Source: Neisseria sp. (GTDB lineage: Bacteria > Pseudomonadota > Gammaproteobacteria > Burkholderiales > Neisseriaceae). Taken from it: 43,867 nucleotides of DNA. A program made the translations under genes and the position numbers. The DNA lies in the NCBI RefSeq assembly GCF_030523955.1, contig NZ_JAUNHL010000021.1, positions 1 to 43,867 on the forward strand, written 5' to 3'. Position 1 is the first letter of the stretch; each line of letters opens with the position of its first letter. Below are positions 21,023 to 24,177 of this stretch, piece after piece. The notes under the pieces are model-generated. The model worked only from the letters and a program-made list of their open reading frames with translations. It did not search any database and had not been told where the DNA came from.

Positions 21023-22057
21023 TTATGATTTCGGATAAGGGCGTACTTCCAAGCCGAACATGGTGCGGGCGGTATTGAGCATTTGGCAGCTGAAGCCCCA
21101 TTCGTTGTCGTACCAAGCGAATACTTTAACCATATTGCCGTTGCTCACTTTGGTGAGATTGGCATCAAAAGTACTGGCTTGCGTGGTGTGGTTAAAATCC
21201 ATAGATACCAACGGCAGGCTATTGTATGCCAACACGCCTTTCATGTTGTTGTCCGCAGCTTCTTTCATGATGGCGTTGATTTCTTTCACGCTGGTATCAC
21301 GCGCCGCTTCGAAGCTTAAATCCACCAAAGAGACATTGGTGGTCGGTACGCGGATGGCCAAACCGTCGAGCTTGCCGTTTAATTCCGGTAATACCAAACC
21401 GACAGCCTTGGCCGCTCCGGTTTTGGTGGGGATCAGGTTTTCTACTGCGCTGCGGGCACGGCGCAAATCTTTATGGCGCACATCGGTAACGGTTTGATCG
21501 TTGGTCATGGCGTGGATGGTGGTCATCAAGCCTTTGATGATGCCTATTTCATCGTTCAACACTTTGGCTACCGGGGCGAGGCAATTGGTGGTGCAGGAGG
21601 CATTGGAGATAACGGTCATCTCCGGGGTAATGATATCGTGGTTGACACCATAAACTATGGTGGCATCGACATCAGAATCACCCGGAGCAGAAATCAACAC
21701 TTTTTTGGCACCGGATTCCAGATGCACTTGAGCCTTGGATTTGCTGGTAAATGATCCGGTACATTCCATAACAAGATCAACGCCTAATTCGCCCCATGGT
21801 AATTCGGCCGGATTGCGGGTAGAGAAAAATGGAATCGGGCGGCCGTTAATAATAAGGTGTTGCGGGTCATGAGAAATATCAGCGCTGAAACGGCCGTGAA
21901 TCGTATCGTACTTGGTAAGATGGGCATTGGTTTCCAGAGAGCCGCTGGCGTTGATGGCAACGATTTCCAGTTGGTCTTCCAACCCATAATCGTAAATAGC
22001 GCGCAAAACTTGACGGCCGATGCGGCCGTAACCATTGATGGCAACTTTAATGCCCAT
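21023..22057 (-). CDS. gap: Glyceraldehyde-3-phosphate dehydrogenase, likely NADP-preferring type
   Basis: 344 residues from ATG 22057 ([15 protein letters not shown]). Catalytic Cys155 sits in SNASCTTNC, with the partner His in the THAMTNDQ segment. The residue after the second beta strand, which is Asp in NAD-specific GapA (N-D-L), is here Asn-Ala-Ser (35-38), so NADP use is likely. Meningococcus has two GAPDHs and this sequence resembles, from memory, its GapA-2 type, the gluconeogenic, NADP-using one. The open frame continues to 22171 but would read through the promoter; the internal ATG fits the family start. Confidence 0.93.
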
Positions 22058-22170
22058 TTTATCAATCCTTTTATGAAGTAAGAGAAGGGAGTTCCTGGTT
22101 CTTGTTAAAATGAAACTTAAGGTAAGCGGGTAGGAGTAGAAAGTCTTAACTACCCGGATAACGAGGGGCA

Positions 22171-22179
22171 TTATATCAG
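22171..22179 (-). promoter_or_regulatory. Extended -10 promoter of gap
   Basis: Minus-strand TGATATAAT, a perfect -10 with the TGn extension, about 114 bases before the gap ATG, leaving a leader of about 105 bases. Confidence 0.55.
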
Positions 22180-22687
22180 AAATGTAGTCAAAAGTAGTTG
22201 AAATTAACGACGAACAATTCGTTTTAGTAAAATTTTTGTTTTAAAATTACATATAAATCATTGCTATATTATAAAAAGACACAGAATGTTGTATTTTTTG
22301 AGGTGGTTATTTTGCAACAATCAATTACATTGAGCAAGAATAGATCAGAGTGAAATACATGCTTTTATGTATATCGAGATAAATATTTTAAGTGATGGCT
22401 CTTGTAGTAGCAGATTAGGAACATTTTATTGATAAATATACTGATTTTATGTTGGAGTCGAGGGGTGTTTGATCTTGATATAGTGAAAGATAGTGAATTA
22501 ATATGTTTTTGATATGATATTAAAGCAGGAAGCAGCGGATGTTACAAAGTAGTGGAAACAGATTTTATTGCTTCTTTAGCCGCTTACAAGATCGCTCTTT
22601 TTAGCTTTGATGCAGCAATGGGGGGGCGGAAGTTAATATTATTAGCTGCCGTTAATTTTAAATCATCTTTTGAAGCTGAAAATGGAT

Positions 22688-22795
22688 AAAAAAACGCCAT
22701 CTATACCAAGGGGAAGATATAGATGGCCAAACACATTACGGGGAAAACGTCTTACTCACTTACTTGCTGTTGAGCAAGTACTTGTCAGACAGGTG
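22688..22795 (-). ncRNA. Small RNA candidate, sibling copy 1
   Basis: Read on the minus strand: a TACTTGCT-CAAC-AGCAAGTA hairpin (22761-22780), a linker with UUUUCCCC, and a terminal hairpin CCATCTATA..TATAGATGG (22697-22726) with loop containing CUUCCCCUUG, followed by CG and seven U. Bases 22697-22765 match copy 2 at 67 of 69 positions. TATTAT at about 22797-22802 is a possible -10. The 5' end is estimated. The layout (two tandem near-identical RNAs, C-rich unpaired segments fit for pairing with ribosome binding sites) recalls the Neisseria sibling sRNAs NmsRA/NmsRB (RcoF2/RcoF1), but homology could not be checked. Confidence 0.65.
22697..22726 (-). terminator. Intrinsic terminator of sRNA copy 1
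   Basis: 9-bp stem CCATCTATA/TATAGATGG (the tenth pair is a C-A mismatch), U-run on the minus strand over 22688-22694. Confidence 0.8.
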
Positions 22796-22980
22796 GATAA
22801 TAGGGTAGTTCCCCGGATTAGATATTTTTTTTTCTATAAACGTATCTGCTTTTCGATAAGCGGTAGTTTCAAGTGTGTTTTTTAACAACGATAAGCTATT
22901 GTATATTAATAAATTTTGTAATTATTTTTTCTGATTATAATTTTATTTAAGGATATTATTTTGGAGAACTTTGTTTGTTT

Positions 22981-23212
22981 TAGGGAGTGTTGTCGACTGC
23001 GTTGCGGCGGCACGTTGGGTTAAAATCCGCATCTGCTCCGTTAGCTAGCGTACCGGATTTGGGAAGCTAAAATGCTCGCAAGATGTTCAATCTTGCTGTA
23101 CTTTTTGCCTTGAGTTTGTGGATTTTCCCTCAAAAAACAGTTTCATAAGCATTATGACTACACGCTCTAAGGTGCAGCAGCGCTGTAGCAAAAGTTAAGT
23201 TAATCCGCTATA
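22981..23212. repeat. Degenerate repeat element between the two sRNA copies
   Basis: Starts TAGGGAGTGTTGTCGAC; near 23157-23169 an inverted version (TACACGCTCTA) occurs. Its centre (23069-23110) matches the left edge of the window in inverse orientation. It ends with TAATCCGCTATA (23201-23212), the complement of a Correia-type end TATAGCGGATTA. No coding potential is seen. Confidence 0.5.
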
Positions 23213-23276
23213 ACTCATACATCATCATGATTAGGGTAGTGGTTTTTGCTGTAAATATAAGGCATGAATTTCAGAT

Positions 23277-23388
23277 AAAAAAAACCATCTATACCAAGGG
23301 GAAAGTATAGATGGCCAAACACATTACGGGGAAAACGTCTTACTCACTTACTTACTTTGGGAAAGTAAGTGTTTATCAGACTGACTTG
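23277..23388 (-). ncRNA. Small RNA candidate, sibling copy 2
   Basis: Minus strand: hairpin ACTTACTTT-CCC-AAAGTAAGT (about 23350-23370), the same UUUUCCCC-bearing linker as copy 1, and a perfect 10-bp terminal hairpin (23285-23314) followed by eight U. The 5' hairpin differs from copy 1 in sequence yet keeps its stem, which points to selection for RNA structure. The 5' end is estimated from the end of similarity; a possible -35 TTGAAC lies near 23398. The target sites would be purine-rich ribosome binding sites (GGGGAAA). Confidence 0.68.
23285..23314 (-). terminator. Intrinsic terminator of sRNA copy 2
   Basis: Perfect CCATCTATAC/GTATAGATGG stem, 10-base loop, U8 tail on the minus strand (23277-23284). 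The tail fixes the direction of transcription. Confidence 0.88.
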
Positions 23389-23469
23389 TTTCAAAATAGT
23401 TCAAAAATAATATGTTAATTAATGTAAACAACAAAATATCTATATAAATTCATGATTTTAAATGTATTT

Positions 23470-24177
23470 TTATTTTTCGTTTTCAATCTTTTCATCTGCT
23501 CTGATGAACTTCCATTCGCCGGGTGTCAAACCGTCTTCATCCCAGTTGCCGAAACGTAAGCGGTGAAGTTGTTCCACGCGGTTGCCGGCGGCAGCTACCA
23601 TACGTTTTACTTGGTGATATTTTCCTTCGCTTATGGTGAGCAGCAGGGTTGTGGGGCTGGATAACTCGGCTGCGCTGGCGGCGACGGTTTCGTTGTCGTC
23701 GTGTAAAAGTACGCCGTTTAGCAGGGTTTGGCAGAAATGGTCATCGGCGGGATGTTTCAGACAGGCCTGATAGAGTTTATCGACTTTGTGCTTGGGCGAA
23801 GTCATGCGGTGGTTGAATTGGCCGTCGTTGGTAATCAAGATGACGCCGGTGGTGTCTGCATCGAGGCGGCCGACGGCTTGTAGGTCGAGTTCGCGTAATT
23901 GGTCAGGCAATAGGCTGAAAATACTGGGATAGTCGCGCGGTTTGTGCGAAGTTTCGTAGCCTGCCGGTTTGTTTAACAGAATATAGAAATAGGGTAACGG
24001 AACAACGATTTTCGGCTCTCCGTCTATCGAGAGAGTGTGCACATCTTCAGGTTGGATTTCTTGTTTGGGGAAATTGACGGTTTGGCCATTGATGGCGACG
24101 CAATCGTTTTCAATCAGCCATTGGCAGCTTCTACGGCTGCCTATGCCTTGTGCTTGCAGGTATTTGAGCAATTGCAT
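23470..24177 (-). CDS. rsuA: 16S rRNA pseudouridine(516) synthase
   Basis: 235 residues. S4-like RNA-binding domain at the N-terminus (LLKYLQAQGIGSRRSCQWLIENDCVAING, residues 3-31), then the RsuA-type catalytic domain with NKPAGYETSHKPRDYPSIF (about 69-87) and VGRLDADTTGVILITNDG (about 102-119, catalytic Asp in RLDADTTG). KYHQVKRMVAAAGNRVEQLHRLRFG is the conserved C-terminal part. It converts U516 of 16S rRNA to pseudouridine; closely related RluE/RluF enzymes act on 23S, but the length and S4 domain favour RsuA. A DUS-like TTTCAGACAGGCC lies inside the gene at 23756-23768. Confidence 0.87.
   Translation of the reverse strand: MQLLKYLQAQGIGSRRSCQWLIENDCVAINGQTVNFPKQEIQPEDVHTLSIDGEPKIVVPLPYFYILLNKPAGYETSHKPRDYPSIFSLLPDQLRELDLQAVGRLDADTTGVILITNDGQFNHRMTSPKHKVDKLYQACLKHPADDHFCQTLLNGVLLHDDNETVAASAAELSSPTTLLLTISEGKYHQVKRMVAAAGNRVEQLHRLRFGNWDEDGLTPGEWKFIRADEKIENEK

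Follow-up and report, generated by a model that had tools for sequence, protein, structure and literature searches.

Between an rsuA-like gene and gapA in a Neisseria sp. genome lie two nearly identical units on one strand. The question raised by this locus is whether they are sibling small RNA genes and, if so, whether the siblings have diverged in the mRNAs they regulate or in the signals they obey. The window, meaning the whole stretch of DNA analysed, comprises 43,867 nucleotides (contig NZ_JAUNHL010000021.1), and all positions given for it are counted from its first letter.

Two sibling units between an rsuA-like gene and gapA

An 80-nt direct repeat with 94% identity and a spacing of 588 is present at 22689-22768 and 23277-23356. 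Each minus-strand unit is about 105 nt long; after a short 5' segment come the 5' hairpin, then the linker, and finally the terminator hairpin with its U-run. Sibling A is a predicted sRNA gene of about 103 nt (22689..22791, minus strand; 107 bits with R1, the family model described below), and sibling B is a second one of about 106 nt (23277..23382, minus strand; 116.8 bits). They are flanked by an rsuA-like pseudouridine synthase gene (23470..24177; Pfam PF00849 and PF01479), which is the conserved neighbour in one class of loci, and, downstream of A, by a gapA-type glyceraldehyde-3-phosphate dehydrogenase gene (21023..22171 as the ORF was listed; PF00044 and PF02800), whose protein probably starts near 22057 rather than at the listed ORF start. 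All four are encoded on the minus strand. A single ORF of at least 60 aa overlaps a unit, a mechanical TTG frame of 71 aa on the opposite strand (22670-22885).

Over linker and terminator, counted from GTGAGTAAGACG through the U-run, 67/71 positions are identical in A and B. A preliminary description of the locus had counted 67 of 69 over the linker and terminal hairpin; the near-identity holds, while the exact stretch behind that count was not reproduced. The 5' hairpins (SL1) differ in sequence, as the same description had it. In plus-strand letters, SL1 of A is TACTTGCT-GTTG-AGCAAGTA (22761..22780, minus strand) and SL1 of B is CACTTACTTACTTTGGGAAAGTAAGTG (23345..23371, minus strand). The strongly conserved linker GUAAGACGUUUUCCCCGUAAUGUGUUUGGCC, whose last bases enter the terminator stem, is identical in B (23313..23343) and A (22725..22755), and its UUCCC is predicted to be unpaired with a probability of 0.98 in B and 0.99 in A. 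Terminator hairpin and U-run occupy 22689..22727 in A and 23277..23316 in B, again on the minus strand. The C-rich segments noticed earlier, UUUUCCCC in the linker and UUCCCCUUG in the terminator loop, occur in both units. The spacing and the two terminators thus located also bear out the earlier view of tandem minus-strand siblings about 590 bp apart, each with an intrinsic terminator.

Folding and terminator scans agree on the strand. The minus-strand folds are far more stable than dinucleotide shuffles (z -5.42 for A and -4.78 for B, with 0/200 shuffles as good in each case), and the plus-strand folds less so (z -3.17 and -2.77; 1/200 and 3/200 as good). The 5' hairpin of A taken alone is unexceptional, since 24/200 shuffles fold equally well (z -1.15). 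Shuffles of 22200-23700 gave 0.8 terminator-like sites and the real sequence three; the minus strand holds two of these, the ones of A and B, and the same scan placed no plus-strand terminator-like site adjoining either unit.

The preliminary description had named a repeat present in many copies genome-wide as a finding that would speak against sRNA genes. Only few copies were found in the own genome. A blastn search with A recovered both copies and, on another contig, an 82% relative; eight further matches were weaker (E 0.08-3.4). R1 gave five matches at E<=0.01, the weakest being a degenerate array. Other stretches at the locus do behave as interspersed repeats: 23069-23144 and 23169-23216, between the siblings, and 22522-22617, beside them, have several relatives in the own-genome pieces compared. 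Such stretches may account for the sibling spacing of 588 bp here, compared with 258-338 bp in five relatives.

A Neisseriaceae family with a conserved structure

The two units belong to a family with a conserved structure, several gene neighbourhoods and two differently phased upstream repeats. Scanned across the named genome collection, the pattern GTAAGACGTTTTCCC-N(0-4)-AATG gave 44 stretches, of which 37 come from Neisseriaceae (Neisseria, Bergeriella, Snodgrassella and other Neisseriaceae), and the other seven, from other bacteria, resemble chance matches. Pattern scan and genome searches together yielded 63 distinct rows, from which L008 and L071 were dropped as chance matches; rows differing only in the U-run were collapsed, and the 55 aligned members were used for the model R1. 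A model search across Neisseriaceae, of the kind that had been proposed as a check, was carried out with R1. It found matches in 76/83 Neisseriaceae genomes at E<=0.1 and in 69/83 at E<=1e-5, including 44/46 genomes of the window's genus at the latter threshold. Elsewhere in the class, 2/142 other genomes matched at E<=0.01 (0.0025 and 0.0037), and both lack the linker by eye.

Members fall into locus classes according to their neighbours: rsuA-like and/or gapA, RsmE-IMPase, moeB-nhaC and, in other genera, ptsI-leuS. A gonococcal chromosome carries three strong copies, one each at rsuA-like/gapA, RsmE-IMPase and moeB-nhaC. In 6/46 genomes of the genus, the window's included, the rsuA locus has a pair of copies no more than about 600 nt apart. 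In N. elongata, a gapA-adjacent and an rsuA-adjacent member lie at two separate places (L044 1233-2446 and L083 1306-1412), an arrangement that points to gapA as the proper neighbour of the A copy and to rsuA as that of the B copy.

The window's assembly (G000) contains the RsmE-IMPase-sRNA neighbourhood twice, on contigs C35 and C36 (L148, L206), with different versions of the sRNA. One of the two may be foreign, given the 3.8% contamination of the assembly, and for this reason four intact paralogs in one cell are not claimed. Degenerate arrays, one of three and one of four linker-like pieces (each up to 3 changes away from CCGTAATGTGTTTGGCC), were also encountered, at L147 2910-3013 and L142 1015-1250 (G014). 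The L147 array corresponds to about 55910-56013 of contig C18 in G000, where, by eye, it is antisense and immediately upstream of a short pilin-like ORF that is truncated. These arrays could be decayed copies, decoys or targets.

The earlier claim that structure is kept while the hairpin sequence drifts is confirmed for the family as a whole, from covariation in the terminator and SL1 and from the folding of 5' regions, the hairpin of A on its own being ordinary. In the family alignment, 8/11 pairs of the terminator stem show changes on both sides with pairing kept. The terminator stem and a middle helix together have 97.8% of cells paired, compared with 24.8-50.9% when the partners are slid, and contain 71 double-changed cells, compared with 14.1 in shuffles (0/500 as many). 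The count of double-changed pairs does not exceed the shuffles (8 vs 6.3; 62/500). In the 19 members at the rsuA locus, SL1 has 3/11 pairs double-changed and every cell paired. Among 34 non-redundant 5' regions the median folding z is -2.64, and 28/34 lie below -1.5. The middle helix, ACGUU/AAUGU, is weak; it pairs in 98.2% of cells, shows no double-sided change in the family alignment and would expose CCCC in its loop.

Different upstream repeats, one shared linker

Besides SL1, the siblings diverge in the region upstream of the gene. B is preceded by a 10-bp direct repeat, TTTAC-N5-TTAAC (23414..23428, minus strand), a candidate regulator site 30 nt from the -10-like box, a weak TATTTT overlapped by GAACTA (23393..23402, minus strand). 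A has no such 10-bp box. Instead, it is preceded by a repeat spaced at 20 bp, CCGCTTAT-N12-ACGTTTAT (22836..22863, minus strand), a candidate site for a different regulator, and by GGAACTA with a -10-like TATTAT (22797..22812, minus strand). Near the -10, GAACTA occurs in 28/61 family upstreams, those of A and B included. A scan for consensus promoters picked the promoter of neither A nor B.

The 10-bp box is widespread in the family. In its general form, TTWAY-N5-TTWAY at exactly 10-bp spacing, it is found in 29/56 upstreams filtered at <80% identity, compared with 2.6 in dinucleotide shuffles, and in 13/33 of a stricter set (<70% identity), compared with 1.0; 0/500 shuffles reached either count. 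With a looser redundancy filter it occurs in 32/67 upstreams (2.2 in shuffles). In this looser set the spacings of 16 and 20 are mildly raised, with 7 upstreams each (a count reached by 5/500 and 2/500 shuffles), and none of the other spacings from 5 to 25 exceeds 7. The box was located in 37/71 upstreams: in 17 its start lies 36 nt before the -10-like element, and in ten 26 nt. The difference amounts to one helical turn and follows locus class, the ten 26-nt cases being the RsmE-IMPase and ptsI-leuS members; the remainder are scattered, with B at 30 nt. Phased direct repeats are usual for OmpR/PhoB-type response regulators. MisR was considered as the reader of the 10-bp box and rejected: its consensus, KWWWTGTAARGNNWH (PMC7286886), fits only in part by eye, and no regulator is therefore named.

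The 20-bp repeat is rarer. The CCGYTTRT pair at this spacing, with one mismatch allowed per half, is present in 7/56 upstreams, compared with 0.04 in shuffles, and 0/500 shuffles reached this count at any spacing of 8-39. Its carriers are A in the window, the gapA- and rsuA-locus members of N. elongata and of G012, and both siblings of L082. A clean split, with the 20-bp repeat on A and the 10-bp box on B, meets the counting rule in the window only, and is partial or absent elsewhere. The two tandem siblings of L082 each have the 20-bp repeat. In the N. wadsworthii-like pairs (L010-L012), the 10-bp box stands upstream of sibling B, and sibling A has neither element under the rule, with a worn 20-bp pair visible by eye.

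The linker is the constant part of these RNAs. UUUUCCC is found in 55/55 aligned members, a figure partly built in because the members were collected with that core, and 37 of them have UUUUCCCC. Among 23 further model matches UUUCCC occurs in 18; L204 and L203:215, both within the 18, are doubtful members, and L147 and L142 are the degenerate arrays. The linker UUCCC is predicted to be unpaired (P>0.7) in 55/61 members. The CCC of the terminator loop is absent in 6/55 aligned members. If only one part of the RNA pairs with targets, it would thus be the linker, which A and B have in common. The earlier proposal that different loops give the siblings different target sets appears doubtful, because the part they share is the linker and their divergence, apart from SL1, is in the upstream region.

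Pairing of the C-rich segments with GGGGAAA-type ribosome binding sites had been suggested; the segments exist, and a general affinity of the linker for translation starts was not seen with crudely called starts. Over 101 own-genome translation starts the linker did no better than shuffled linkers (69/150 as good), and it bound coding windows better than starts (-14.1 vs -13.0 kcal/mol, own genome); this test is weak because the starts were those of 101 ORFs called by a crude rule. The own genome contains the exact complement, GGGAAAACG, 49 times, compared with 16 for the reversed pattern, and the gonococcal chromosome 61 times, compared with 14, the sRNA genes being counted in both. Codon usage may explain this excess. 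Some start codon with an ORF of at least 60 aa follows just downstream at 13/49 own sites and at 16/57 gonococcal sites (61 found). Most of these sites are inside other reading frames by eye, and one was kept in each genome. The own-genome site (C75) is at the start codon of a gene for a 248-aa protein without a Pfam match, and this gene was found in 1/44 genomes of the genus, its own, and not in the other 43 searched. The gonococcal site is the start region of ispD (L292, N. gonorrhoeae W01:1017200-1018800), where GGGGAAAACGcATG is exactly complementary to the linker CGUUUUCCCC, as a single case. The earlier interpretation is supported as regards two tandem sRNA-like units that end in terminators; the searches for targets came out negative or turned up isolated sites lacking conservation.

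Readings of the locus and known systems

From these comparisons, A and B are probably sRNA genes of a Neisseriaceae-wide family whose members have a common linker and divergent 5' hairpins and upstream repeats, and which likely act in trans on mRNAs through the exposed UUUUCCCC. Each sibling would have a promoter of its own, and its transcription would end at its own intrinsic terminator. The 10-bp repeat would be read by a factor that switches B, and likewise many members at other loci, and the 20-bp repeat by another factor that switches A, so that the siblings would answer different signals. Both RNAs would act on one common set of mRNAs through the same linker, most simply by blocking translation start or promoting mRNA decay, with help from Hfq and/or ProQ. 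A more tentative extension is a post-transcriptional hub of the Neisseriaceae, in which paralogs in at least four neighbourhoods carry the same pairing element, each locus answers its own signal through an upstream repeat of its own phasing, and A and B form a two-input OR gate on one regulon.

An unlikely alternative is that A and B are leader or read-through elements, serving as terminators or attenuators of their neighbours (B at the 3' end of the rsuA-like gene, A in the 5' leader of gapA), with the RNAs as by-products. The common strand of the rsuA-like gene, B, A and gapA would fit this explanation, as would the members of N. elongata (L044) and L082 that end about 90-100 nt upstream of the gapA match. 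However, the same linker adjoins the unrelated RsmE-IMPase, moeB-nhaC and ptsI-leuS genes, which argues for a role in trans, and many rsuA-locus stretches (about 1.5 kb on each side) contain no gapA. An attenuator, moreover, needs no conserved unpaired linker at every locus, and A and B each have their own upstream elements. We also regard it as improbable that the RNAs mainly bind protein, the linker being a site for ProQ, Hfq or another RNA-binding protein that is titrated with little base pairing. Conservation of the linker over about 30 nt is more than a seed requires and was counted against the pairing reading; the negative target scans point the same way, and structured sRNAs are bound by the minimal ProQ of N. 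meningitidis (PMC7272453). Against a mainly protein-binding role, C-rich unpaired segments perform the pairing in NmsRA (PMC5362039).

An RNA on the plus strand, as modelled by Rfam, is very unlikely. The Rfam family RF02861, IR_84 (Neisseria sRNA 84), scores 55.2 bits on the plus strand of B, above its gathering threshold of 51, and 44.5 bits on that of A. Its matches span 22680-22859 and 23263-23429 of the window. Against a plus-strand RNA are the weaker plus-strand fold, an A run that precedes the hairpin, and the lack of a plus-strand terminator-like site by A or B. The IR_84 consensus, when reverse-complemented, resembles the RsmE-IMPase-locus member of the A/B family; IR_84 models the opposite strand, and the terminator and U-run belong to the strand outside its model. 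We infer that the entry was built on the wrong strand, because its consensus opens with an A run before a hairpin, the mirror image of a terminator U-run; to judge from the same consensus, it was probably built on one locus class. A mobile or inert repeat without RNA function can hardly be credited. The degenerate linker-like arrays in the own genome (C18) and in G014, and the interspersed repeats between A and B, would agree with it, and the few copies per genome, the conserved neighbours and the covarying stems contradict it.

If the sRNA reading is true, the family provides a set of sRNAs with several paralogs per genome, and hence a regulon open to mapping in commensals. In Rfam it is found only as the seemingly wrong-strand entry IR_84. 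The full-text searches made found no published name for it and no paper giving its core sequence; members may stand in supplementary sRNA lists (PMC4423775, PMC4176332, 10.1093/nar/gkx168). With their different upstream repeats, A and B would allow a direct test of whether promoters rather than targets diverged after sRNA duplication.

Among the nearest systems described are the sibling sRNAs NmsRA/NmsRB of pathogenic Neisseria, equivalent to NgncR_162/163 and to RcoF. These RNAs form three stem-loops and carry anti-SD segments in two places, one in the SL2 loop and one between SL1 and SL2; they repress TCA-cycle mRNAs and are under RelA control. The preliminary description had taken A and B for a possible divergent counterpart of them and proposed the comparison, which was made with the gonococcal pair and does not favour homology. 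NmsRA/NmsRB are located between dsbB and lrp (PMC5362039), whereas A and B lie between the rsuA-like gene and gapA. Beside dsbB, the gonococcal chromosome contains a tandem pair with the core TTTCTCCTCTACTTCTCCTTTGTAGACTTGGCACACATT, which the smRNA8 probe printed in PMC4148029 fits by eye. The blastn matches of this pair to A and B are of 7-8 nt only, R1 has no match on the gonococcal dsbB-lrp stretch (L088), and homology was rejected. In the own genome, dsbB is on a contig of 4.3 kb that R1 does not match.

The likeness to NmsR/RcoF is one of working principle. Tandem siblings, U-run terminators and C/U-rich unpaired segments are common to both, and the published NmsR/RcoF work offers a works-like analogue for translational repression (PMC5362039, PMC9973317). 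By analogy, the linker may act as the anti-SD segments of NmsRA do. In NmsRA (PMC5362039), mutating either C-rich anti-SD segment abolished repression of all confirmed targets except gltA, whose repression depended on the second segment only. The segments differ: by eye the gonococcal NmsR-locus pair has UCUCC-type ones, and A/B have UUUUCCCC. Of the NmsR stem-loop plan, SL1 and the terminator are firm in A/B and the middle helix is weak. A and B would represent a new RNA family of a known kind, that of sibling sRNAs with a predicted action in trans. Qrr1-5 and OmrA/OmrB are sibling sRNA sets that use one seed and several promoters. In the reading proposed here, A, B and their relatives would resemble these sets by description, as paralogous trans-acting sRNAs with a common pairing segment placed under different promoters.
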